From Jiangella asiatica (GTDB taxonomy: Bacteria; Actinomycetota; Actinomycetes; Jiangellales; Jiangellaceae): a stretch of DNA of 64,000 nt. Location: the NCBI RefSeq assembly GCF_004349065.1, contig NZ_SMKZ01000017.1:1-64000 (forward strand), in the 5' to 3' direction. The notes beneath the pieces were generated by a model. The model did no database searches. It had not been told where the DNA came from and saw only the letters and a list, made by a program, of their open reading frames with translations. A program made the position numbers and the translations under genes. Positions 50,224 to 64,000 of this stretch are shown here, piece after piece (position 1 is the stretch's first letter; every line of letters begins with the position of its first letter).

Positions 50224-51756
50224 GTGACTGACGGCTCCGGCTCGTCGGACGCTTTCGTGCTCGGTGACGTCGCGCCTGGCGACGTCCGGGTGCGCTACTC
50301 CCCGTCGCCGACGGGCAACCCGCACGTGGGCGTCATCCGCACCGCCCTCTACAACTCCGCGTTCGCACGCCACTTCGGCGGCACGTTCGTGTTCCGCATC
50401 GAGGACACCGACGCCGCCCGCGACAGCGAGGAGTCCTACGAGGCGATGCTCGAGGCGATGCGCTGGCTCGGCCTCAGCTGGGACGAGGGTCCTGACGTGG
50501 GCGGGCCGTACGAGCCGTACCGGCAGTCGCTGCGGCACGAGATCTACACCGATGTCGCCGGCACGCTGCTCGAGACGGGCCAGGCATACCACTGCTACTG
50601 CACGCCGGAGGAGCTCGACGAGCGCCGCGAAGCCGCCCGCGCCGCCGGCAAGCCCAGCGGCTACGACGGACGCTGCCGCACGCTGACGCAGTCGCAGATC
50701 GAGGCCTACCGGGACGAGGGCCGGCAGCCGGTGCTGCGCCTGCGAATGCCCGACGAGGCGGTCACGTTCGTCGACCTCATCCGCGGTGAGATCACCGTCG
50801 ACCAGTTCAACCTCTTCGACTACGTGCTCGTCCGCGCCAACGGCCAGCCGCTGTACCCGCTGGTCAACCCGGTGGACGACGCCCTCATGGGCATCACCCA
50901 CGTGCTGCGCGGTGAGGACCTGCTCTCGTCGACGCCGCGCCAGCTGGTGCTGCACCGGGCGCTGCGCGAGATCGGTGTCGCGTCCGGCCCGCTGCCGCGG
51001 TTCGCGCATCTGCCGCTGGTCACCGGCGAGGGCAACCGCAAGCTGTCCAAGCGCGACCCGGAGTCGTCGCTGGCGCTGTACCGCGAGCGCGGGTTCCTGC
51101 CCGAAGGACTGCTGAACTACCTGGCGCTGCTCGGCTGGTCCATCGGCGAGGACCGCGAGGTGTTCTCCCTGGAGGAGATGGCCGAAGCGTTCGACGTCAC
51201 CCGGGTCAACTCCAACGCCGCACGGTTCGACCTGAGGAAGGCCGAGGCCATCAACGGCGCCTGGTTGCGGCGGTTGTCGCCGGACGACCTGGCCGCCCGG
51301 ATGGTCCCGTACCTGCAGGCCGCCGGCGTGTTGCCCGCTTCGGTGCCCGACGAGGCGATGGAGCTGCTGCGGGCCGCGACGCCGCTGGTCCAGGAGCGGA
51401 TGACGGCCCTCGACGAAGCCGTCGGCATGCTTGGTTTCCTGTTCGCACGCGGCGTCGTGCCGTTCGACGAGGACGCGGTCGTCAAGGTCCTGACGGCTGG
51501 TGCCCGCCCAGCGCTCGCGGCCGCCCGCGACGGACTCGCTGCGCTGGAGAAGTGGAACACCGAGGCCATCGAGTCGACCCTACGCTCGGCCCTGGTCGAC
51601 GGTCTGGGCCTGAAGCCGAAGCACGCCTTCGGCCCGGTCCGGGTGGCCGTGACCGGCCGCCGGGTCTCGCCGCCGCTGTTCGAGTCCCTGGAGCTCCTCG
51701 GCCGCGAGCGCACCCTGGCGCGCCTGGACGCCGCCCTCGGCCGCACCTCCGCCTGA
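50224..51756 (+). CDS. gltX: Glutamyl-tRNA synthetase
   Basis: 510 residues, class I synthetase charging tRNA-Glu. The HIGH-type motif is [40 protein letters not shown] follows; the KMSKS-type loop is [14 protein letters not shown]. The C-terminal half is the anticodon-binding cage. The N-terminus has a 20-residue extension compared with many homologs (GTG 50224 after AAGGTG), so an internal GTG near 50284 (ahead of RVRYSPSP) cannot be excluded. Confidence 0.96.
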
Positions 51757-52092: not shown

Positions 52093-52119
52093 CGGAGTCA
52101 CGGTGGGGAAACGGGCCAT

Positions 52120-52164
52120 TGACAGGTTCGTCACATTGCCCCTAGTCTCAGCAATCGATTTCTC
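52120..52164 (+). promoter_or_regulatory. Promoter and operator of the GH116-type gene
   Basis: TTGACA (52120-52125) and TAGTCT (52143-52148) are 17 bases apart, close to consensus. Just after the -10 lies GCAATCGATTTCTC (52151-52164) with the palindromic core AATCGATT, typical for LacI-family repressors; it covers the expected transcription start. The same 14 bases occur inverted at 57178-57191 before rbsA. ATG 52194 follows CGGAGGACGCG. Confidence 0.75.
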
Positions 52165-52193
52165 AGCCGTCCGAACACCCCGCGGAGGACGCG

Positions 52194-55100
52194 ATGGGCA
52201 TCGACCTGACCACCACCCCCGATTCCGCCGCGGAGTGTTGCGGCGGCGCGGCCTGTGATCCCGGCGAGATGAGCCGGCGCTCGTTCATCGCGCTCTCGGC
52301 GGTGGGCGCGGCCAGCACCGGCGCCGCCCTGGGACTCTGGCCGAACAGCGCCAACGCCACGATGAACACCCGCGCCGTCCCGGCCACCACCGCGCTCGAC
52401 CGGCGCTGGCTGGACAGCATCGCCGCCCGCGGCACGGCGACGGAGTACACCGGTCAGGCACTGAGTCGCATCGGGATGCCGGTGGGCGGTGCGTGCACGG
52501 GCCAGGTCTACCTCGCAGGTGACGGCCGGACGTGGTTGTGGGACGTCTTCAACGCCGACAGTTTCCGGTACGGCGGCGACGACTGGCAGGGCCTGCACTA
52601 CGCGGACCCGATCGAGCTCGACCCGTTCATCACCACCGGCTTCGCGCTGCGCTGGACCGCCGACGACGGCACCACGCGGACCCGGAGCATCGACAGCGAC
52701 GGCTTCGGCGACGTGCGGTTCCGTGGGCGTTACCCGATCGGCCACGTGGAGCTGCGCGACGACGACTGCCCGCTGGAGGTGGACCTCGACGCGTTCTCGC
52801 CGTTCGTGCCGACGAATGTCGCCGACTCCTCGCTGCCGGCCACGGTCTTCGAATACACGCTGCGCAACCGGTCGGACCGGACGGTGAGCGCGCAGCTCCT
52901 CGGCGTCGCGGAGAACCCGGTCTGTATCGACAGCCGGCGCACCCAGCCCATCCTGCTCGAGACCGGTCCGCTCACCTCCCATGCCGACGCCGCCGGCCTG
53001 CTCCACAGCGCCGCCACCTACGACGGCCCGCAGCCCGAGCGCCCGGACATCGTCTTCGAGGACTGGGAGCGCGACACCTACGCGCCGTGGACGGCCACCG
53101 GCACCGCGTTCGGCGCCGGGCCGGTCACCGTCGACGAGCTGCCCGGTTACATGCTGAACGGCGGGTCCCTCGGCGTCAGCGGGGACCGCTTCGTCACGTC
53201 GCACCACTTCCGCGACGGCGAGGACGTCTTCGAGGCCGACACCCACCAGGGCCGGCTGACCAGCGCGGAGTTCACCATCGAGCGGTCCAGCATCCTGGTA
53301 CGCGTGGGCGGGGGCAACCACGCCGGCGCCACCTGCCTGAACGTCGTCGTCGACGGCGCCGTGGTCGCCTCCGCGACCGGTGCGAACGAGGAGCGGCTGC
53401 GCACGTACTGGCTGGACCTCTCCGGGCATCAGGGCAGCACCGCCACGATCGAGATCGTCGACACCGTCACCGGCGGGTGGGGCCACGTCAACGTCGATCG
53501 CATCGTGTTCAGCGACCGGCCGGCGCCGCGCCCGGACGTCGTCATCGAGGACTGGGAGCGCACCACCTACGCGCCGTGGACGGCCACCGGCACCGCGTTC
53601 GGCTCCGGCCCGGTCACCGAAGCAGAGGCGCCGGCGTACTTCCGCCGCGAGGGCCCGCTGAACGTCAACGGCCAACGCTTCGTCACCTCGCACAACTGGC
53701 GCGACGGCGGTCCGCCCGCCGACGACCACGAGGGCACGCTGACCAGCGCGCCGTTCACCATCGAGCGCCGCTACCTGGCGGCGAACATCGCCGGCGGCAA
53801 TCGGGTGGACGCGGGCCTGAAGGTCGTCGTCGACGGCGAGGTGGTCGCCCGGCTGACCGGCCACAACTCCGAGGTGATGCGGGCGAAGGCCATCGACGTC
53901 AGCGCCTACCAGGGCCGCACCGCCGTCATCGAGCTGCACGACGAGGGCATCGGCGGCTGGGCGCACGTCAACTGCGACCGCATCTGGCTGTCCGACGTCC
54001 CGATCAACGAGCGGCCGCTGGAGGAGCTGCCCGACGGCGGCACGTTCGGCCTGGCGGTGTTCGGCCGCCCGGACGCGACGGTGCGGCCGTCGATCGCCGA
54101 CTGGTCCGGTCCCGAGGCGTGGTTCGACTCCGCCGACGGACCGCTGGAGGTCGATGGCGGCAGCGGCACGCTCGCCGGCACGGTCACCGTCCCGCTGGAG
54201 CTCGCGCCGGGGGCGAAACAGACCGTCAGGTATGCCCTGGCCTGGCACTTCACGAAGGTCGGTACGCGCTTCGGCTACATCGCCGGTGCCGCGGCGCTGC
54301 GCCGGCACTACGGCGAGGTCTACGCCGACGCGGGCGCCGTCGTCGCCGATCTGGCCGAGCGCGGCGACGAGCTGGCCGCGGCCACACACACGTTCGCGAG
54401 GACCTGGTACGACGACGCCACGCTGCCGGTGTGGTTCCTCGAGCGCACGCTGATCCCGGCGTCCACCGTCGCCACCGGCACCTGCCTGCGCTTCCACGAC
54501 GGGCGGTTCTACGCGTGGGAGGGCATCTACTGCTGCGACGGCACCTGCACACACGTGTGGAACTACGCCCAGTCGATCGGCCGGCTCTTCCCCGAGCTGG
54601 AACGCGACGCGCGCGAGCGGGTCGACTACGGCATCGCCTTCCACGAGGACACCGGCGCCATCGACTACCGCGGCGAGGCGCACCGCCGGGTCGCGCACGA
54701 CGGCCAGTGCGGCAACATCCTGCGCACCTACCGCGAACACCAGATGTCCGCCGACGGCGCCTTCCTCGGCCGCATCTGGCCGCGAGTGAAGGCGGCCACC
54801 GAGCACCTGATCAGGCACGACGGCGCGGGCGACGGCGGCAGCCCGGACGGCGTGATCGAGGACGAGCAGTACAACACGCTGGACGCCTCGTGGTACGGCG
54901 AGATCCCGTGGATCACCGGCCTCTACGTCGCGGCGCTTCGGGCCGCCGCGGAGATGGCCGACGACGTCGGCGACACCGCGTTCGCCGCCCGGTGCCGGGC
55001 ACTCGCCGACGCCGGCAGCGCCCACCTGGACGGCGCGCTCTGGAACGACACCTACGGCTACTACGAGCACGTCGTCGACCCGGAGCACACCGACGCCACC

Positions 55101-55946
55101 AACTCCAACCGCGGCTGCCACATCGACCAGATGTTCGGGCAGACCTATGCCCACCAGCTCGGACTGCCCCGCGTGTTCTCCGAACGGAACGCGCTGACAG
55201 CGTTACAAAGCCTGGTCCGCAACAACTACCTGCCCGACGCGCAGTCCTACCAGGACGAGTCCGGCATCGTCGGCGGGCGCACGTACAGCACCGAGGGCGA
55301 GGCCGGCACCGTCATGTGCACCTGGCCCTTCGGCGGCGCCGACACCGCGCCCGGCAACGGCGACCCCGGCCTCGTCGCCTACTTCAACGAGGTCTGGACC
55401 GGCCAGGAGTACCAGCTCGCCGCGCAACTGTTCGCCGAGGGCATGGTCGACGAGGCGCTGGCGGTCACCCGCGCGGTGCACGACCGCTACACCGCGGAGA
55501 AGCGCAACCCGTACAACGAGATCGAGTGCTCCGACCACTATGCGCGGGCCATGATGAGCCACGCGGTCTACCTGGCCGCCACCGGTTACGAGTACCACGG
55601 CCCGCGCGGGCACCTGGGCTTCGCGCCGCGGCTGGGCGACCTCGACGACGTCGCGGCCGCGTTCACCGTCGCCGAGGGCTGGGGTCTCTACCGCCAGCAG
55701 CGCACCGAGACGCGGCAGCGCAGCGAGGTCGACGTCCGCTACGGCCGGCTGCGGTTGCGGACGTTCGCGACGCAGGTCCCGGAGCGGCCCGGCAACCGGC
55801 AGGTGGTCGTCGAGGTGGTCACCGACCGGCGGCGCCGCCGGCTGGACGTCGCCGATGTCGCCGTCTCCAGGTCGCGGGTGCTGGTCACGCTGGCCGCCGA
55901 CGCCGAGCTGACCACGGCCGACACGCTGGTGGTGACGGTCGTATGA
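52194..55946 (+). CDS. Tat-exported GH116-type glycosidase with two inserted beta-domains
   Basis: 1250 residues. A Cys-rich start (ECCGGAACDPG) precedes a Tat signal, SRRSFIALSAVGAASTGAAL. Residues about 60-280 and 605-720 are the split N-terminal GH116 beta-domain (LSRIGMPVGGACTGQVYLAG, GLAVFGRPDATVRPSIADW). Between them sit two tandem copies (about 284-442 and 447-603) of a domain with DWERxTYAPWTATGTAFG, FTIER and GGWxHVNxDRI, as found near GH32 enzymes. From about 735 is the (alpha/alpha)6 catalytic domain (DUF608): GTCTHVWNYAQSIGRLFPEL, YNTLDASWYGEIPWITGLYV; Asp897 is a candidate acid/base by position. Likely substrate: a beta-linked glucoside, xyloside or arabinofuranoside. Confidence 0.85.
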   Translation: MGIDLTTTPDSAAECCGGAACDPGEMSRRSFIALSAVGAASTGAALGLWPNSANATMNTRAVPATTALDRRWLDSIAARGTATEYTGQALSRIGMPVGGACTGQVYLAGDGRTWLWDVFNADSFRYGGDDWQGLHYADPIELDPFITTGFALRWTADDGTTRTRSIDSDGFGDVRFRGRYPIGHVELRDDDCPLEVDLDAFSPFVPTNVADSSLPATVFEYTLRNRSDRTVSAQLLGVAENPVCIDSRRTQPILLETGPLTSHADAAGLLHSAATYDGPQPERPDIVFEDWERDTYAPWTATGTAFGAGPVTVDELPGYMLNGGSLGVSGDRFVTSHHFRDGEDVFEADTHQGRLTSAEFTIERSSILVRVGGGNHAGATCLNVVVDGAVVASATGANEERLRTYWLDLSGHQGSTATIEIVDTVTGGWGHVNVDRIVFSDRPAPRPDVVIEDWERTTYAPWTATGTAFGSGPVTEAEAPAYFRREGPLNVNGQRFVTSHNWRDGGPPADDHEGTLTSAPFTIERRYLAANIAGGNRVDAGLKVVVDGEVVARLTGHNSEVMRAKAIDVSAYQGRTAVIELHDEGIGGWAHVNCDRIWLSDVPINERPLEELPDGGTFGLAVFGRPDATVRPSIADWSGPEAWFDSADGPLEVDGGSGTLAGTVTVPLELAPGAKQTVRYALAWHFTKVGTRFGYIAGAAALRRHYGEVYADAGAVVADLAERGDELAAATHTFARTWYDDATLPVWFLERTLIPASTVATGTCLRFHDGRFYAWEGIYCCDGTCTHVWNYAQSIGRLFPELERDARERVDYGIAFHEDTGAIDYRGEAHRRVAHDGQCGNILRTYREHQMSADGAFLGRIWPRVKAATEHLIRHDGAGDGGSPDGVIEDEQYNTLDASWYGEIPWITGLYVAALRAAAEMADDVGDTAFAARCRALADAGSAHLDGALWNDTYGYYEHVVDPEHTDATNSNRGCHIDQMFGQTYAHQLGLPRVFSERNALTALQSLVRNNYLPDAQSYQDESGIVGGRTYSTEGEAGTVMCTWPFGGADTAPGNGDPGLVAYFNEVWTGQEYQLAAQLFAEGMVDEALAVTRAVHDRYTAEKRNPYNEIECSDHYARAMMSHAVYLAATGYEYHGPRGHLGFAPRLGDLDDVAAAFTVAEGWGLYRQQRTETRQRSEVDVRYGRLRLRTFATQVPERPGNRQVVVEVVTDRRRRRLDVADVAVSRSRVLVTLAADAELTTADTLVVTVV

Positions 55947-57133
55947 GCGGCGCTGTGCGTCGGGCCCGGTTCGTGGCGCTCAGCGGGTTCCTGGGCGCCG
56001 GCAAGACGACGACCCTCGGGGCGCTGGCCCGGCTGCTGGAGACCCGTGGCCGGCGCGTCGCGGTCATCACCAACGACCAGGGCGAGCAGCTGGTGGACAC
56101 CCGGGTCGCCGCGGTGAGCAGCGGCGACGTCGCGGAGGTGACGGGCGGCTGCTTCTGCTGCCGGTTCGAGGACCTCGAGACGGTGGTGACGGCGGCGATC
56201 GAGCACGGCGCCGACACGATCCTCGCCGAGGCGGTGGGCAGCTGCACCGACCTGCAGGCGACGGTGGTCCGGCCGCTGCGCCGGCGCTTCGGCGACGGGT
56301 TCGCGGTGGCGCCGCTGGTGGCCGTCGTCGACCCGCTGCGCCACGCCCAGCTGGGCCGGTCGCTGGCGCTGCGCGACGAGCGGTCGGACCTGGCCTATCT
56401 GTACGACCGCCAGCTGGCCGACGCGGACGTCGTCGCCGTGAACAAGATCGACGCAGCGCCCGGCGGCGAGGTCGACCGCACCCGCGACGACCTGCGGCGA
56501 CGGTATCCGTACGCGCGGGTCCTGGAGTACTCGGCGACGACGGGGGAGGGCCTGGCCGCGCTGGCGGACCTGCTGGCCGGCGACGGCGACGGTGATCGAG
56601 CGAGCGGAGACGCGGCCCCGGCAGCGCGGGACTTGGAGATCGACTACGACCGTTACGCCGCCGCCGAGGCCGAGCTGGCCTGGCTGAACCACACGGTGCG
56701 GCTGGAACCGGCCGGCACGGCGCCGGTCCCGCCGGCCCGGTGGGGCGAGGCGGCGCTGGCTCACCTCGGTGCGGCGGCGGCCCGGCGGGGCTGGACCGTC
56801 GGGCACGCGAAGGTGGCCATCGAGACGGCCGGGCGGATCACGAAGCTGAGCCTGGTCGACGCCGTCCGTCCGCCGATCGCCGACCTCGACGCCGGCACGC
56901 ACGCCGCCACGCACGCCGCCACGCACGCCGCCACTCATGGCGCGACGGCCGTGCTCAACGCCCGGATCGCGTGCGGTCCGCGGGAGCTGGACGCCGCCGT
57001 CGCAGCCGCGGTCGCCGCCGCGGACGGCGCCACCGGCACGGTCTCCACCTCGGACGCCGGGCCGCCGGCGTCGTTCGCACCGTCGTTCCCGACCCCGACC
57101 CACCGCCTTCCATCGGCGATCGACAAGGCCTAG
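55943..57133 (+). CDS. CobW/COG0523 family GTPase with His-rich tract
   Basis: 396 residues of the G3E family of metal-centre chaperones. P-loop SGFLGAGKTTTL at about 14-25, the metal-binding GGCFCCRFEDL (CxCC) near 66-76, Asp-containing Walker B (LVAVVDP) and NKID guanine specificity. Unusual is residues 318-332, THAATHAATHAATHG, encoded by three copies of a 12-base repeat, a likely metal-binding tract. The ATGA overlap with the GH116-type gene makes one operon, so the metal may be required by that locus, or the link may be only positional. C-terminal 60 residues are low-complexity Ala. Confidence 0.85.
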   Translation: MSGAVRRARFVALSGFLGAGKTTTLGALARLLETRGRRVAVITNDQGEQLVDTRVAAVSSGDVAEVTGGCFCCRFEDLETVVTAAIEHGADTILAEAVGSCTDLQATVVRPLRRRFGDGFAVAPLVAVVDPLRHAQLGRSLALRDERSDLAYLYDRQLADADVVAVNKIDAAPGGEVDRTRDDLRRRYPYARVLEYSATTGEGLAALADLLAGDGDGDRASGDAAPAARDLEIDYDRYAAAEAELAWLNHTVRLEPAGTAPVPPARWGEAALAHLGAAAARRGWTVGHAKVAIETAGRITKLSLVDAVRPPIADLDAGTHAATHAATHAATHGATAVLNARIACGPRELDAAVAAAVAAADGATGTVSTSDAGPPASFAPSFPTPTHRLPSAIDKA

Positions 57134-57177
57134 CCGCCCACTCCAGGGGCAGCAGGTCCCTGGTGATCACCGGAGAG

Positions 57178-57208
57178 GAGAAATCGATTGCTCTTCGTGG
57201 CGTACTCT
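57178..57208 (+). promoter_or_regulatory. Operator and possible -10 of the rbsA-rbsC-rbsB-GH172 operon
   Basis: GAGAAATCGATTGC (57178-57191) is the exact reverse complement of the site before the GH116-type gene. TACTCT (57203-57208) could be the -10 box, placing the operator over the -35. CCGGAGG before ATG 57223 is the ribosome-binding site. Confidence 0.7.
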
Positions 57209-57222
57209 CTCCGGAGGTCACC

Positions 57223-58773
57223 ATGACGGCCCCGCCGCTGCTCGCGATGCGCGGCATCGTCAAGCACTTCGGCGGCGTGCACGCGCTGCGTGGCGTCGAC
57301 CTCACCGTCGGCGCCGGTGAGGTGCACGCCCTGCTCGGCGAGAACGGCGCCGGCAAGTCGACGCTCATGAACATCCTGTCCGGGGTGGTCCGGCCCGACG
57401 GCGGCGGCATCGAGCTCGCCGGCGAACCGGTCGCGCTCGGCTCGCCCGCCGAGGCCCAGGCCGCCGGCGTCGCGATGATCCACCAGGAGCTCGACCTGGT
57501 GCCGCAGGCGACCGTCACCGAGAACCTGTTCCTCGGCCGTGAGCCGCGCACCCGCCTGCGGACCCTGGACCGGGCCGCGATGCGACGGCACGCGCGGGAG
57601 CTCCTCGACGACATCGGCGTCGAGCTGGCACCGTCGCGGCGGCTCAGCTCGCTGCGGGTCGGCGAGCAGCAGATGGTCGCGATCGCGAAGGCGCTGAGCC
57701 TGGACGCGCGCATCCTCGTCATGGACGAGCCGACGTCGGCGCTGTCGGACTCCGAGGTGGAGCGGCTGTTCGCGATCATCCCGGGGCTGCGCCGCCGCGG
57801 CGTCGGGGTCGTCTTCATCTCGCACCGGATGGACGAGATCGCCGTCGTCGCCGACCGCGGCACCGTGCTGCGCGACGGGCGCAACGCCGGGTCGTTCGTC
57901 GTCGCCGAGACCCCGCCGGCCGAGATCATCCGCATGATGGTCGGCCAGCCGATCGAGCAGCTGTTCCCCGACCGGGAGCCGCCGGCCGAGCGCGTCCGGC
58001 TGCGCGTGCGCGACCTCACCGTCGCCGACGGGTCGGACCTCGGCGGGCGCAGCGAGCCGCGCGGCGTCGACCTCGACGTGCGCGAGGGCGAGGTGCTGGG
58101 CCTGGCCGGACTGCTCGGCGCCGGCCGTACCGAGCTGCTCGACGCCCTGTTCGGGCTGGCCGGGCACCGGCTGTCCGGCACCGTCGAGCTCGACGGCGAA
58201 CCCGTCCGGTTGAGCGACCCGCGCGACGCCATCGCCGCCGGAATCGGCTACGTGCCGGAGGACCGGCGCGCCAGCGGGCTGGTGATGATGGAGTCGGTCG
58301 CCGCGAACATCGTGCTGGCCGCGCTGCCGGCGCTGGCCCGAGCCGGCTGGCGGCGGGCGGCCCGCGAGCGCGAGGCCGTCGCGTCGTCGATCCGCGACCT
58401 GCACATCAAGACCGCCAGCGCCGAGTCCGCCGTCGGGACGCTGTCCGGCGGCAATCAGCAGAAGGTGGTGTTCGCCCGGCATCTGCTGCGCCAGCCGCGG
58501 CTGCTGCTCCTGGACGACCCCACCCGCGGCGTCGACATCGGCGCCAAGTCCGAGATCTACCGGCTGCTCGCGGGCCTTGCCACCAGCGGACTGGCCGTCG
58601 TCGTCGCGTCGTCGGAGCTGCCGGAACTGCTCGGCATCTGCGACCGCATCGCGGTGCTGCGCGGCGGCCGCATCGTCACCGTGCTCGACGGCCGCGACGC
58701 CACGCAGGAGGCGATCCTCGCCGCCGCGAGCATCGAGCAGAACAGCAACCCCAGCCGCATGGAGGCCGGATGA
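57223..58773 (+). CDS. Sugar ABC transporter ATPase with two nucleotide-binding domains (RbsA/MglA type)
   Basis: 516 residues. First domain: FGGVHALRGVDL, Walker A GENGAGKS, signature-like SSLRVGEQQMVAIAKAL and Walker B ILVMDEPTSALSDSEV. Second domain: LGAGRTELLDALFG in place of a standard Walker A, VGTLSGGNQQKVVFARHLL and LLLDDPTRGVDIGAKSEIY, as usual for this class where one site is degenerate. It energises the permease encoded next (4-base overlap). Class members import pentoses, hexoses or autoinducer-2. Confidence 0.94.
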   Translation: MTAPPLLAMRGIVKHFGGVHALRGVDLTVGAGEVHALLGENGAGKSTLMNILSGVVRPDGGGIELAGEPVALGSPAEAQAAGVAMIHQELDLVPQATVTENLFLGREPRTRLRTLDRAAMRRHARELLDDIGVELAPSRRLSSLRVGEQQMVAIAKALSLDARILVMDEPTSALSDSEVERLFAIIPGLRRRGVGVVFISHRMDEIAVVADRGTVLRDGRNAGSFVVAETPPAEIIRMMVGQPIEQLFPDREPPAERVRLRVRDLTVADGSDLGGRSEPRGVDLDVREGEVLGLAGLLGAGRTELLDALFGLAGHRLSGTVELDGEPVRLSDPRDAIAAGIGYVPEDRRASGLVMMESVAANIVLAALPALARAGWRRAAREREAVASSIRDLHIKTASAESAVGTLSGGNQQKVVFARHLLRQPRLLLLDDPTRGVDIGAKSEIYRLLAGLATSGLAVVVASSELPELLGICDRIAVLRGGRIVTVLDGRDATQEAILAAASIEQNSNPSRMEAG

Positions 58774-59810
58774 CCGTCGACACCACCGACCCCGTCGAGA
58801 AGCCAGTCGAGCAGTCCAGGAGACGGCGGTTCGTCATCCCGGAGCGGTTCTTCACGTTCCAGAGCTACGTCGCGCTGATCCTGGTCTTCCTTGCCGCCAT
58901 CATTTTCTCGCCGCGACGCAACGGGGAGATCGTCTTCCTGAACTCGGAGAACCTGCTCAACATCGTCCGCGCGGTCTCCGAGATCGGCATCCTGGCGATC
59001 GGGATGACGTTCGTGATCCTCATCGCCGGCATCGACCTGTCGGTGGGCGCCATCCTCGGGCTCGCCGCCACCGGGACCGCCAGCCTGCTCATGGTGAACG
59101 ACTTCGGCGTGGCCATGACCGTGCTGATCATCCTCGCGATCGGGATGGCCTTCGGCGCCACCCAGGGCTACCTGTCCGCGCGGCTGGGCATCCAGGCGTT
59201 CATCGTGACGCTGGCCGGACTGCAGGTGGCCCGCGGCCTGGCCCGGATCTGGTCCGGCGGGCAGGGCATCGCGCTGGCCTACGGCGACGGCCCCGACGTC
59301 GCGCCGCAGGCGTTCTCGCTGCTCAACTCCCGGACGTTCAACGGAACGGTGCCCATCCCGGCGCTCATCTTCGCCGGCGTCGGCGTCATCGCACTGATCG
59401 TCGTCCGTAAGACGGTGTTCGCCCGGCACGTCTACGCCATCGGCGGCAACGAGCGGGCGGCGCGCCTGTCCGGCATACCGGTCACCAGGATCAAGGTGAC
59501 CGTGTTCGCGATCTCCGGCCTGCTCGCGGCCCTGGCCGGCATCATCCACGCCGGCCAGCTCAACCAGGGCAGCCCGAACGACGGCATGGGCTACGAGCTG
59601 GACGCCATCGCCGCCGTCGTCATCGGCGGCACCAGCCTCATGGGCGGCGTCGGGACGGTGTCGGGCACGCTCGCCGGCGCCCTGCTGCTCGGCATCCTCA
59701 ACAACATCCTCGCCCTCAACAACATCGACTCCAACGTCCAGCTGCTGATCAAGGGCGTGATCATCGTCGCCGCGGCCGGCATCCAGGCCTTCAGGTCTCA
59801 GCAGAAATGA
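58770..59810 (+). CDS. Sugar ABC transporter permease (RbsC type)
   Basis: 346 residues with about ten membrane helices: YVALILVFLAAIIFSPR, ISEIGILAIGMTFVILIAGI-like SEIGILAIGMTFVILIAGID, LSVGAILGLAATGTASLL, and the family segments FIVTLAGLQVARGLARIW, HVYAIGGNERAARLSGIPV and VVIGGTSLMGGVGTVSGTL. The GxGGxERAARLSGI-like loop contacts the ATPase. ATG 58770 overlaps the preceding stop. Confidence 0.94.
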   Translation: MTVDTTDPVEKPVEQSRRRRFVIPERFFTFQSYVALILVFLAAIIFSPRRNGEIVFLNSENLLNIVRAVSEIGILAIGMTFVILIAGIDLSVGAILGLAATGTASLLMVNDFGVAMTVLIILAIGMAFGATQGYLSARLGIQAFIVTLAGLQVARGLARIWSGGQGIALAYGDGPDVAPQAFSLLNSRTFNGTVPIPALIFAGVGVIALIVVRKTVFARHVYAIGGNERAARLSGIPVTRIKVTVFAISGLLAALAGIIHAGQLNQGSPNDGMGYELDAIAAVVIGGTSLMGGVGTVSGTLAGALLLGILNNILALNNIDSNVQLLIKGVIIVAAAGIQAFRSQQK

Positions 59811-59830
59811 CTCCCACGAGAGGAACCGTC

Positions 59831-60850
59831 ATGTCCAGAACCATCCGCGCACTGACCGCGCTGTGCGGCACCGCCGCCCTGTTCGCCGTCGCTGCCTGCG
59901 GCACCGAGTCCGACGTCCCCGAGTCCGCCGGCGGCTCCGCCCAACCCGACGAGGGCACCGAGTGCGCCGGCGCCGACGGCGAATACCTCATCGGGATGAG
60001 CCAGGCCAACGTCGCCGAGCCGTACCGCCAGCAGATGGACGACGACATCGAGGCGGCGGCCGCCGAGGTCGACCAGTTCGAGGTCGTGTTCGCCGACGCC
60101 GCCCAGGACAACGCCAAGCAGGTCGCCGACGTCGAGAACTTCCTCACCCAGGGCATCGACCTGCTCATCATCAGCCCCAACGAGGCCGCGCCCCTGACCG
60201 CCGTCGTCGAGCGCGCCTACAACGAGGGCATCCCGGTCATCGTCCTGGACCGCAAGATCGAGGGCGACTCGTACACGCAGTTCATCGGCGCGGACAACAC
60301 CGAGATCGGCCGTGCCGCCGGCGAGTACGTCGCCACCGAGCTGCTGCCCGACGGCGGCTCCGTCGTCGAGCTGAAGGGCCTGCCCGGCTCCACGCCCGCG
60401 CAGGAGCGGGCCGACGGGTTCCGTGCAGGCATCGCGGCCAACCCGAACATCGAGATCATCGCCGAGGGTGTCGGCGACTGGCTGCGCGAGAAGGGGCAGA
60501 GCCAGTTCGAGGCGATCCTGCAGGCGCAGCAGGCCATCGACGTCGTCTACGCGCACAACGACCCGATGGCCGAGGGCGCGTACCTCGCCGCCCAGGCCGC
60601 CAGCCGGCAGTCCGAGATGAGCTTCATCGGCATCGACGCCCTGCCCATCCCGTCCGGCGGCATCAAGGCGGTCGAGGAGGGCCGGCTCTCGGCGACGTTC
60701 GTCTACCCGACGGGCGGCAAGGAGGCCATCGCCACCGCCGAGGAGATCCTCGTCCAGTGTGCCGAGGTGGACAAGGAGCAGATCCTCGAGACGGAGCTGA
60801 TCACCGTCGAGAACGCCGCCGAGATCTACGCCCGCAACGCGACCCAGTAG
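59831..60850 (+). CDS. Sugar-binding lipoprotein (RbsB type)
   Basis: 339 residues. Lipoprotein signal with lipobox AVAAC (Cys about 24), then a Ser/Gly/Asp linker. The periplasmic-binding-protein type I fold: [80 protein letters not shown] and [18 protein letters not shown]. Close in pattern to ribose/galactofuranose-type binders (YtfQ-like), which suits a furanose sugar. ATG 59831. The GH172 gene begins seven bases after its stop. Confidence 0.93.
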
Positions 60851-60857
60851 GAGTGTC

Positions 60858-63800
60858 ATGAAGCTGGCACGACTGACCCTGATCGCCGCACTACTCGCCA
60901 CCCCCGCCGCGACCGCGAACGCCACGACCACCGCGGACGCCGCGCCCGACCCCGTCGTCGGAGTGTCGCAGGCGAGCCCCAACGGACCCGTCGGCTGGGA
61001 CGTCTACCGGCAGCTGGACCGGCTGCCGGAGCTGGCCGCCGGGGTCGGCACCGAGCAGTTCTCCAGCTACGACCGGGCCGGCGGCAACGACGACGGCTTC
61101 GTCGGCACCTACTCCTGCCTGAGCCAGGGCGAGCACGGCTGCGTCATCGCCGAGCACACCGGCGCCGGCGAGATCGGCTCCATTTGGTTCACCCGCGACG
61201 GTGGCAACGTCTCGGCCACCGGCAACATCGTGATCGAGCTGGACGGGTCGGTCGTGCTCGATGCGCCGATCCAGGACGTCGTCGACGGCGAGCTGGGCGC
61301 GCCGTTCGTGTTCCCGCTGGTCGCCAACGCCGACCAGAGCTCCGGCGGCGTCACGATCAAGGTGCCGATGACATACCGGGAGTCGATGCGGGTCTCCACC
61401 ACGAACAACCCGCTGTTCCACCACGTCAGCTACCGCACGTTCCCGACCGCCGAGGGCGTCGCGACGTTCGACCCGGACGAAGTGCCGACGGATGTCCTGG
61501 AGATGCTGGCCGCCTACGGGACGCAGGATCCGAAGCCGGCGCGTTCCAACGCCCAGACGAGTGAGCGCGACGTCGAGCTGGCGGCGGGGGAGAGCGTCCG
61601 GCTGGGCCGGTTCAGCGGCAGCGGCCTGCTGACCGAGCTGGCGTTGCGGCTGCCGCAGGTGGTGGGCCCGCAGGAGGGCCCGAGCGTCACCGACGACGGC
61701 CGCGCCCACGTCGGGACCAGCACGTTCACCGTCGCCGTCGACCCTGCGAACCAGGGCGTCCTGCTGACCCGCCGGCTGGACACGTTCTCCGCCGACCAGG
61801 TCGCCACCGTCTCCGTCGACGGCGTCGAGGTTGCGCAGTGGCAGCCGCTGCCCGGCACCGGCGGCGAGTGGGCCGACCAGACGGTGGAGCTGCCGGCGTC
61901 GGTCACGGCGGGCAAGTCGGAGATCACGATCACGAACGCCTTCGTCTCCGCCGGCATCGACTACAACGAGTTCCGCTACTGGGTCGACTCGGTGGTGGAC
62001 GGTCAGGCGGTGCGGACGGACGAGGTGGACGTCGGCACGTCGGCGGCGGCGCTGCAGAGCGAGGCCGCGCACGACTATGTCATCGTCGAGCCGCGCTGGG
62101 ACGGCGAGCGGACCTACCGGTACCCGCCGGCGCCGGGCCAGGAGGACGAGGTCGCGGTGTCCGACGCGCTCCTGCGCGACCTGCGGCTGCGCATCTCCTT
62201 CGACGGCCAGCAGACGGTCGACGCTCCGGTGGGCGAGTTCTTCGGCTCCGGGCTCGGGGAGACGTCGGTCCGGTCGCTCATGTACGCGATGGAGGACGGT
62301 GACGGCGGCTGGTACCGGTCGTGGTGGCCGATGCCGTACGCGCGGTCGGCCGAGGTGTGGCTGGTGAACGAGTCGGAGGTGCCTGTGACCGCGGGTTCGT
62401 CGTCGATCACCTGGGCCCGGGACACGTCGGTCGCGCGGTCACTGCGCGGCGAAGAGCCGGCGATCGGGTACTTCCAGGCGACGAGCCGGCGCGGTGACAC
62501 CGAGTTCGGCCGCGACTGGGTCTTCCTCGACGTCGACGGTCACGGCAAGTTCGTCGGCGTCAACCACACCATGGAGGGCCGCATCACCGGAGGCAACATC
62601 CGCAACTACCTGGAAGGCGACGAGCGCGTCTACGTCGACGGCATGCGCACGCCGCAGCTCAACGGCACCGGCTCGGAGGACTTCTACGAGGGCGGGTGGT
62701 ACTTCAACCGCAACGAGTTCTCCAACCCGATGAACGGCGCGCCGGAGATGGAGACCCGCAGCTTCGGCTGCGAGCACCAGTGTGACGCGGCGTACCGCCT
62801 GATGATCGCCGACGCGGTCGGCTTCCGGACGGGGCTGCGCTTCGGCATCGAGCACGGCCCGACCGCCAACGAGCCGGCGGTCTACGGGTCGACGGCGTTC
62901 TGGTACGGCCACGCCGGGGCTGTGGGGCTGCGGACGACGGACACCGTGCCGGCGGGCTCGGGGGGCCGGGAGCTGACCTCGACCTTCGAGGGCGACGACG
63001 ACACCGTCGCGGTGACGGGGACCGTGGCCGACTCCACGGAGCCGGTGACGTTCACCGTCGACATCGACCAGAAGAACGACGGGGTCCGCTTGCGGCGGCT
63101 GTCGGACCAGGCTTCGCCCGGGCAGGCAGCGGCGGTGTCCGTGGACGGCGTGGACGTCGGGGTATGGCGGCAGCCGCTCGGCAACACGTCGTCGCGGTGG
63201 CTCGAGGACGAGTTCGAGCTGCCGGCGCCGGTGACCGCGGGGAAGTCGTCGGTGACGGTGACGCTGTCCCCGGTTCCCGGGGCGCCGGCGTGGACCGCGG
63301 CGACGTACCAGGTGCTGTCGCACGTGCGGCCGTTCGCCGACCGGACGCCGCCCGGCGCGGTGTCGTCGCTGGTGGCGACGGGATCGTCGGTGAACGCGGT
63401 GTCGCTGTCCTGGGCGGCTGCCTCGGACGACGTCGCCGTCGCGTCGTACGAGGTGCACGCGTCGCGGACCGCCGACTTCACGCCGTCGTCGTCGACCCTG
63501 GTGGGCACCGTGTCGGCGCCCGGTTTCCAGCACGGCGGACTCGGGCTGGCCGAGACGTGGCACTACCGGGTCCGGGCGGTCGACGCCGCCGGGAACGCCG
63601 GCCCGTGGTCGGAGGTGGCGTCGGCGACCACCGGACGGACCCTGAACGTCGAAGGCGAGTCCCTGCTGCCGGCCGTTTCCGCGACCGCGCCGATCGAGGC
63701 GCAGGGCAACTGCTGCGGTGTCTCGTGGTCCGGGGGAGCGCAGCTGTGGTTCCGGGCTGACTCGGCGGACGATGCCGCTGTGCTGTCGTTCGACGTTCCC

Positions 63801-64000
63801 ACGGCGGGCACCTACGACGCGTCGGCCGTACTGACCCAGGCGGCCGACTACGGCGTGGTGCGGTTGTCCGTCGACGGCGGCTTGGTCGGAGCGGCGTTCG
63901 ACGGGTACAACGACGGCGTCCGCGTGGCCGACCCCGTGTCGCTGGGCTCGCTGACACTGTCGGCCGGGCAGCACGAGCTGGCACTGACGCTCACCGGGCG
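60858..64000 (+). CDS. Secreted multi-domain GH172 (DUF2961) glycosidase, 3' end beyond window
   Basis: At least 1047 residues, no stop before the window edge. A Sec signal ([21 protein letters not shown]) is followed by a DUF2961 domain: [40 protein letters not shown], then an insertion, [25 protein letters not shown] and the hallmark [16 protein letters not shown] with Glu607 as candidate catalytic residue. A small beta-domain occurs twice (about 290-355 and 735-800: [15 protein letters not shown] and [17 protein letters not shown]). A fibronectin type III domain (about 830-925) and a carbohydrate-binding-like domain follow. GH172 contains exo-D-arabinofuranosidases and difructose-dianhydride enzymes. 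Last gene of the rbs-type operon. Confidence 0.85.

Follow-up and report, generated by a model that had tools for sequence, protein, structure and literature searches.

Which glycan is served by the six-gene operon at the right-hand end of the window, the 64,000-nucleotide stretch of Jiangella asiatica DNA analysed here (bases 1–64000 of contig C34, from a genome of 7.03 Mb in 134 contigs)? The genes all lie on the + strand and encode, in order, a GH116 glycosidase, a COG0523/CobW GTPase, RbsA, RbsC and RbsB proteins and a GH172 glycosidase. A sequence-only reading had proposed a D-arabinan-scavenging locus, with two exported glycosidases around a complete RbsA/RbsC/RbsB importer under shared regulation; it placed the start at 52120, which falls within the −35 box, and did not mention the COG0523/CobW gene. 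All of the genes that it named are present, on the + strand and with the corresponding family matches. In our view, the operon is quite probably one arm of a LacI-controlled D-arabinan/D-arabinose regulon. Sequence evidence, above all that on regulation, gives the D-arabinan interpretation good support.

A common operator and a second gene cluster

The operon palindrome TGAGAAATCGATTGCTGAG is found at two places, in the GH116 promoter and ahead of rbsA, and the near-identity of these palindromes (52147–52166 and 57175–57196) bears out the proposal of common regulation. Operator 1, CTCAGCAATCGATTTCTCAG (52147–52166), overlaps the −10 region of a promoter, TTGACA-N18-TAGTCT (52119–52148, + strand), which was read by eye as a consensus match only; similar boxes are present in the aligned relatives. 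Operator 2, GAGGAGAAATCGATTGCTCTTC (57175–57196), is the operator 1 sequence in the opposite orientation. The core AATCGATT occurs exactly twice in the 64-kb window, at these two operators. Among the loci whose sequences were printed, our own included, it lies upstream of GH116 in seven of seven and within the cobW–rbsA gap in five of five.

To search the whole genome we used a 17-mer taken from operator 1, allowing at most two mismatches. The 7.03 Mb gave five sites, two at the operon and three in a single cluster on contig C87, the sites of which were not used for the pattern; the reversed-pattern control gave none, and about 0.08 were expected from base composition. Within some 305 kb of distinct DNA from this genome the AATCGATT core is confined to the operon (two copies) and the C87 cluster (four copies). 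The stretches within these 305 kb that surround the remaining GH172 genes, two further GH116 genes and the weaker DUF4185 matches are free of it.

The products of the C87 cluster are a DUF4185/GH183 protein, a LacI repressor, a GH172 protein, a CUT1 sugar ABC (ATP-binding cassette) importer, a FucI-type isomerase (Fucose_iso family) and an FGGY kinase. The best PDB match of the GH183 protein, which has a Sec-type leader if the upstream start is taken, is EndoMA1 (8hhv, E 4e-104). That of the GH172 protein is ExoMA1 (8ic8, E 1e-143); it retains Asn253 and is without an evident leader. As we read these sequences, the operator ties the window operon to a second D-arabinan gene cluster of known type. 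The GH183 gene is not adjacent to the operon and is linked to it by the common operator at C87; a GH183 gene in Haloactinopolyspora alba (G001) also carries the operator.

The sequence-only reading had suggested looking to the right of the operon for a LacI regulator, GH183 and D-arabinose catabolic genes. GH183, catabolic genes of the D-arabinose type and a likely LacI regulator are found instead on C87, under the common operator, and lend support to the D-arabinan interpretation. On the right itself there is a LacI gene (64827–65798), which we set aside as a regulator. Because it has no AATCGATT core nearby, and because no orthologue was seen within 1.4–3.6 kb past GH172 in three relatives (G006, G008 and G010), it probably does not regulate the operon.

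Operator sites in related genomes

Across 13 relatives an exact 14-mer gave 14 sites in seven genomes, with none in the control, and eight of the 14 are at orthologues of the operon. In H. alba the remaining sites precede a CUT1 importer that is accompanied by a second GH116, a GH183 gene and a CUT1–GH172 cluster; G002 has one upstream of a CUT1–GH172 cluster, J. muralis (G012) one upstream of GH172 and G010 one between CUT1 and FucI genes. Other genes also adjoin some of the relatives' operator sites, such as GH43-type genes in H. alba.

We note two further features of Haloactinopolyspora. GH43-family genes adjoin its operator-bearing CUT1–GH172 cluster (L115:4578–8008, contig C36), and the second GH116 of H. 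alba (L113:2931–9578, contig C4) is of a shorter type and has both a CUT1 importer of its own and the same operator.

In two other families parts of the two gene sets are merged in a single locus. The G048 locus contains FGGY, GH172 (55%), RbsB, RbsC, RbsA and LacI genes, divergent FucI and GH116 (63%) genes and two operators. In G144, from a third family, the operator-bearing order is CUT1–GH172–LacI–FucI–GH172 (of the window-operon type)–RbsABC–FGGY. Since these loci mix the two gene sets of Jiangella, chance sharing of the operator is unlikely. At the family level, Fucose_iso and FGGY genes are found in the operator-bearing loci of C87, G010, G048 and G144.

The GH116 glycosidase

The GH116 gene (52194–55946, + strand) encodes a subfamily-4-type glycosidase of 1250 amino acids with a twin-arginine leader, SRRSFIALS, as read from the sequence. 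It matches DUF608 (5e-34) and Glyco_hydr_116N (7e-30) in Pfam, and its best PDB match is the exo-β-D-arabinofuranosidase ExoMA2 (8ic6, E 1e-67), followed by a glucosylceramidase (5e-17). Counting from the Met at 52269, the nucleophile E751, the acid/base D872, H762 and R801 match Glu431, Asp557, His446 and Arg483 of ExoMA2. The statement in the sequence-only reading that GH116 includes β-D-arabinofuranosidases is confirmed by PMC10509167.

The same paper describes the characterised GH116 members as mostly β-glucosidases, which would suit an ordinary GH116 β-glucosidase operon standing beside an unrelated GH172. We regard this as scarcely credible, as the ExoMA2 match surpasses that to any β-glucosidase or glucosylceramidase by about 50 orders of magnitude, and the residues equivalent to His446 and Arg483 are kept at the positions held in TxGH116 by Asp452 and His507 (PMC10509167).

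An AlphaFold model of the protein is weak (mean pLDDT 67.6, pTM 0.39); a Foldseek search with it placed 8ic6 first (E 3e-29, TM-scores 0.29/0.39) and TxGH116 next (1e-16), a ranking that is supportive at most. Residues ∼258–580, in the N-terminal half, form two inserted tandem β-rich modules (motif WGHVNVD/WAHVNCD) with no Pfam match of their own, which may perhaps be sugar-binding. Members of the GH116 clade come from Pseudonocardiaceae, Kribbella, one Streptomyces and Verrucomicrobia-type metagenome-assembled genomes (16 loci), and in a class-wide sample ten of 393 genomes have matches at E 1e-110.

The GH172 glycosidase

The last gene of the operon (60858–64000, + strand) is truncated by the end of the window and runs on to its true end at 64064 on contig C34. 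It encodes a GH172 protein of 1068 amino acids (DUF2961, 4e-66) with a Sec-type leader, so that both glycosidases, judged by reading their leaders, are predicted to be exported as had been proposed. The architecture consists of an extra half-DUF2961, a repeat domain, the catalytic DUF2961, a second repeat domain, a fibronectin-III-like domain and a C-terminal module. In profile comparisons, residues 45–235 match the first part of a single-domain GH172 (probability 97.5, E 7e-12), the full catalytic unit is recognized with a probability of 99.9, and the two repeat domains, one after each DUF2961 unit, match each other with a probability of 99.5. Both catalytic glutamates are kept, at the positions of the αFFase1 nucleophile E291 and acid/base E270 (PMC8605356). 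The AlphaFold model was not used (mean pLDDT 38.9, pTM 0.23, three sequences). The protein is of a 1.5-domain kind and, by its active-site residues (see below), not an ExoMA1-type member. In the class-wide sample, matches at E 1e-60 are found in 14 of 393 genomes.

A second 1.5-domain GH172, on contig C33 (L011:9315–15577, G000), has as neighbours a GH67 α-glucuronidase-family protein and, judged by sequence, genes like those of sugar importers, with no AATCGATT core nearby; here the type stands in another substrate context. Since it resembles the operon protein while lying beside GH67 and lacking the operator, likeness alone cannot place a GH172 in the regulon. Elsewhere on C33 (78000–117999; L063, L064) there are two further GH172 genes and two DUF4185 proteins barely above the Pfam cut-off, none with the operator core, which are perhaps a separate furanoside system.

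The RbsABC importer

The importer genes, all on the + strand, encode an RbsA-type ATPase (57223–58773), an RbsC-type permease (58770–59810) and an RbsB-type sugar-binding lipoprotein (59831–60850, with an alternative start at 59807). By family assignment (two-domain ATPase, BPD_transp_2 permease, Peripla_BP_4 binding protein) this is a CUT2 system. RbsB has the lipobox VAAC, as read from the sequence, and its best PDB match is a sensor protein, 2x7x (E 4e-70; next match 8e-41), which we take to be a fructose-binding sensor domain. The ligand was looked for in PMC3404733 and was not found there. D-Fructofuranose matches D-arabinofuranose over the ring, and the likeness to 2x7x was counted in favour of D-arabinose.

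Assignment of the substrate

Several observations weigh against D-arabinan as the substrate. Identity between GH116 and ExoMA2 is no more than 34% in the catalytic region, and in an unrooted tree, with no β-glucosidase outgroup, the protein falls into a 13-member clade of its own (100/100 support) apart from ExoMA2. All four of the diagnostic ExoMA2 residues are kept in 19 of the 19 GH116 proteins aligned with it; as every aligned relative has them, they mark the subfamily and not the substrate, and we dropped them as proof of specificity. With this identity, a separate clade and residues kept everywhere, the family call is therefore firm and the substrate call comes mainly from the regulon. 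The comparison proposed for GH116 comes out in favour of the sequence-only reading in that ExoMA2 is a better match than any β-glucosidase; the low identity and separate clade leave room for a specificity other than that of an exo-β-D-arabinofuranosidase.

GH172 likewise departs from its characterised relative. An alignment of 12 full GH172 proteins of the operon type (the incomplete G187 was left out) has a tyrosine in all 12 at the position of ExoMA1 Asn253 and αFFase1 Gly299, and the Trp pair ahead of the acid/base Glu is absent from the window protein, with N-Y there instead. Gly299 of αFFase1 gives space for the hydroxymethyl group of fructose (PMC10509167). The tyrosine argues against fructofuranosides and also separates the protein from ExoMA1. 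The two catalytic glutamates and the missing fructofuranosidase glycine speak for the proposed placement, but the protein is not of the ExoMA1 type.

These residues bear on the possibility that the locus serves fructofuranosides of the difructose anhydride or inulobiose type, by means of α- and β-D-fructofuranosidases and a fructose importer. The likeness of RbsB to 2x7x, with its presumed fructose binding, would fit such a locus. So would the presence in GH172 of the difructose dianhydride enzyme αFFase1 (PMC8605356). We consider it highly improbable, given the tyrosine at the Gly299 position, the GH183 genes in the operator-bearing loci and the fact that no fructan genes were seen at those loci.

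The remaining points against D-arabinan concern the wider regulon. FucI-type isomerases act on D-arabinose and also on L-fucose. The C87 isomerase has PDB matches under both names, and both it and the kinase fall well short of the NCBIfam cut-off of every named enzyme. The stretch read in G048 is without GH183, a CUT1 importer and CobW, and that in G144 is without GH116, GH183 and CobW. In J. muralis the GH116–CobW operon includes sugar-acid-dehydratase-like and rhaM-type genes, and the exact operator is found solely at a GH172 gene on a different contig.

The J. muralis arrangement, the unlike active-site surroundings of GH172 and the double naming of the isomerase would suit an operon with a borrowed regulator and a different purpose, the use of an L-fucose-type sugar or of some other D-arabinose-like furanoside, whether from a non-mycobacterial glycan (D-arabinofuranose of pilin or O-antigen) or an L-fuco-configured furanoside. 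We think this unlikely, since the operator is common to an EndoMA1-type GH183 and an ExoMA1-type GH172, and the kinase scores better as a xylulokinase (277 bits, under the cut-off of that model) than as a fuculokinase (77 bits). No FucA-type aldolase was recognized among the genes beside FucI–FGGY, although no dedicated search was made.

The divergent operon of J. muralis (L085) is also seen in G005 (L072), and comprises genes for an enolase-superfamily dehydratase, a GntR-like regulator (named from sequence), RbsABC-type proteins, GH116, CobW, a rhaM-type mutarotase and a MIP-family channel.

The CobW GTPase and the cysteine cluster

Overlapping the GH116 stop codon by four bases is the start of the GTPase gene (55943–57133, + strand). 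Its product (PF02492, 3e-27) is the only protein of the genome to match that family at E 0.001, and its P-loop (Walker A) GFLGAGKTT, CFCC (CXCC) and NKID motifs identify it as a COG0523 protein. Among nine Jiangella-family loci, eight have the gene immediately 3′ of GH116, including the divergent J. muralis type (GH116 about 45% and CobW 39% identity); G002, the ninth, is split by contig ends. Two Actinophytocola loci have it there as well, and in one of them the GH116 call is in two pieces. In total 26 genomes were searched. Of the 20 with the GH116 clade, 14 gave a near-full-length CobW match (including one with an internal stop codon and one in two pieces), two a weak partial match and four none; no match was found in the six without the clade. 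Within Jiangella, counting our own genome, CobW is present in 7/7 genomes with the clade versus 0/5 without it (Fisher 0.0013). This co-occurrence is not independent evidence, because the genomes are related and the genes are mostly adjacent.

A cysteine cluster, CCGGAAC, precedes the twin-arginine of GH116. At least three cysteines occupy this region in 14 of 20 GH116 gene starts, with three lacking them and three unreadable, and the G048 protein also has such a cluster. When a crude twin-arginine translocation (Tat) pattern was applied to 742 called proteins it selected 17, seven of which have at least three preceding cysteines, all seven being GH116 proteins. The other ten have none; two are GH116 proteins, namely that of the window, with its start called too late, and that of J. 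muralis. A strict pairing of CobW with the cluster failed, as no CobW match at 1e-10 accompanies the cluster in Allokutzneria (G393), Kribbella (G396) or G048, and the J. muralis type has CobW without the cluster. Since each occurs without the other in some genomes, the link is suggestive only.

The GTPase probably assists the maturation of GH116 before Tat export. More tentatively, and with considerable doubt, we propose that the GH116 clade may be metal-dependent or metal-checked: the GTPase would load metal in the cytoplasm via the pre-Tat cysteine cluster, only the metallated, folded enzyme would be exported, and the docking motif would be removed with the leader. If true, as far as the open-access literature searched shows, COG0523 chaperones would gain their first client among the glycoside hydrolases, and the cluster would be a new export-checkpoint motif. 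That literature, which mostly leaves out subscription papers, yielded no GH116–CobW link, a co-mention of COG0523 and glycoside hydrolases in one Microbacterium genome report and no report of metal in GH116 subfamily 4; PMC10509167 mentions neither zinc nor calcium. This putative metallochaperone link is the most original feature of the operon.

A parallel is offered by Fe-type nitrile hydratase and its COG0523 activator Nha3, the genes for which are neighbours. There too a CXCC-containing G3E GTPase serves one client enzyme (PMC2770081, PMC9164220), whereas the partner gene of the Jiangella GTPase encodes a glycosidase with a Tat leader.

Gene spacing and flanks

The operon genes are separated by short gaps or overlap by four bases, save for the 89 bases ahead of rbsA that hold operator 2. 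On the left is a glutamyl-tRNA-synthetase-like gene (50257–51756, named from sequence), and on the right are tRNA-Gln and tRNA-Glu genes (64221–64457). The whole gene order lies on a single contig in our genome, G006, J. aurantiaca (G008), G010 and H. alba, and is broken by contig ends in J. rhizosphaerae (G013) and G002. A scan of viral contigs found no relatives.

Comparison with known D-arabinan systems

Genes for D-arabinan-cutting enzymes were reported recently in two papers from 2023 (PMC10115798, PMC10509167). The Microbacterium arabinogalactanolyticum locus MIAR_33170–33320 (EndoMA1/2, ExoMA1 and ExoMA2) combines GH183 endo-, GH172 exo-α- and GH116 exo-β-type enzymes with an ABC importer, an isomerase and a kinase (PMC10509167). 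In Jiangella, C87 holds the close counterparts of EndoMA1 and ExoMA1, and the GH116 partner is in the window operon instead. Everything is in one locus in Microbacterium, whereas Jiangella has two loci with a common operator, plus the CobW GTPase. The Microbacterium exo-enzymes are described as lacking signal sequences, while both glycosidases of the Jiangella operon have export leaders, and the Microbacterium importer, with an SBP_bac_8 binding protein, is thought to take oligosaccharides, in contrast to the monosaccharide-type CUT2 system here.

In PUL42 of Dysgonomonas gadei (DgGH172a/b/c, DgGH4185a/b; PMC10115798), GH172 and GH183 enzymes likewise attack arabinogalactan. DgGH172b, described there as having 1.5 DUF2961 domains, resembles the window GH172 with its extra half-domain; it was the weaker enzyme, active on arabinogalactan and less so than the others on lipoarabinomannan, and left pilin oligosaccharides uncleaved. 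PUL42 differs in being a Bacteroidota locus, and the available text mentions neither a CUT2 importer nor a CobW GTPase. The open-access literature searched gave nothing on Jiangella with arabinan or on D-arabinan with LacI. On these comparisons the operon in all likelihood serves D-arabinan/D-arabinose scavenging and is a variation on a known system, not a novel kind.

Proposed pathway and significance

In the scheme that we favour for this soil-type actinobacterium, GH116 would strip terminal β-D-arabinofuranose and GH172 α-D-arabinofuranose outside the cell, from arabinan chains or from fragments released by the co-regulated C87 GH183 endo-D-arabinanase, and RbsABC would take up the freed D-arabinose, a rare sugar. 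In the C87 arm, the CUT1 transporter would import oligosaccharides for cleavage by the cytoplasmic ExoMA1-type GH172, and D-arabinose would pass via the FucI-type isomerase and FGGY kinase to D-ribulose 5-phosphate. At both loci TGAGAAATCGATTGCTGAG would be the binding site of the C87 LacI repressor. The probable source of the glycan is the wall of mycobacterium-like cells; D-arabinan is the signature polysaccharide of mycobacterial cell walls.

The result is a defined candidate regulon with an operator, a candidate repressor, two transporters and two arms, in which a DNA motif predicts further members, among them the unusual GH172 architecture and the second GH116 of Haloactinopolyspora. With the GTPase and the pre-Tat cysteine cluster, the idea that a COG0523 protein may act for a glycoside hydrolase becomes directly testable. 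For Jiangella, the arrangement suggests a strategy of digestion outside the cell and monosaccharide import beside the oligosaccharide import already proposed.

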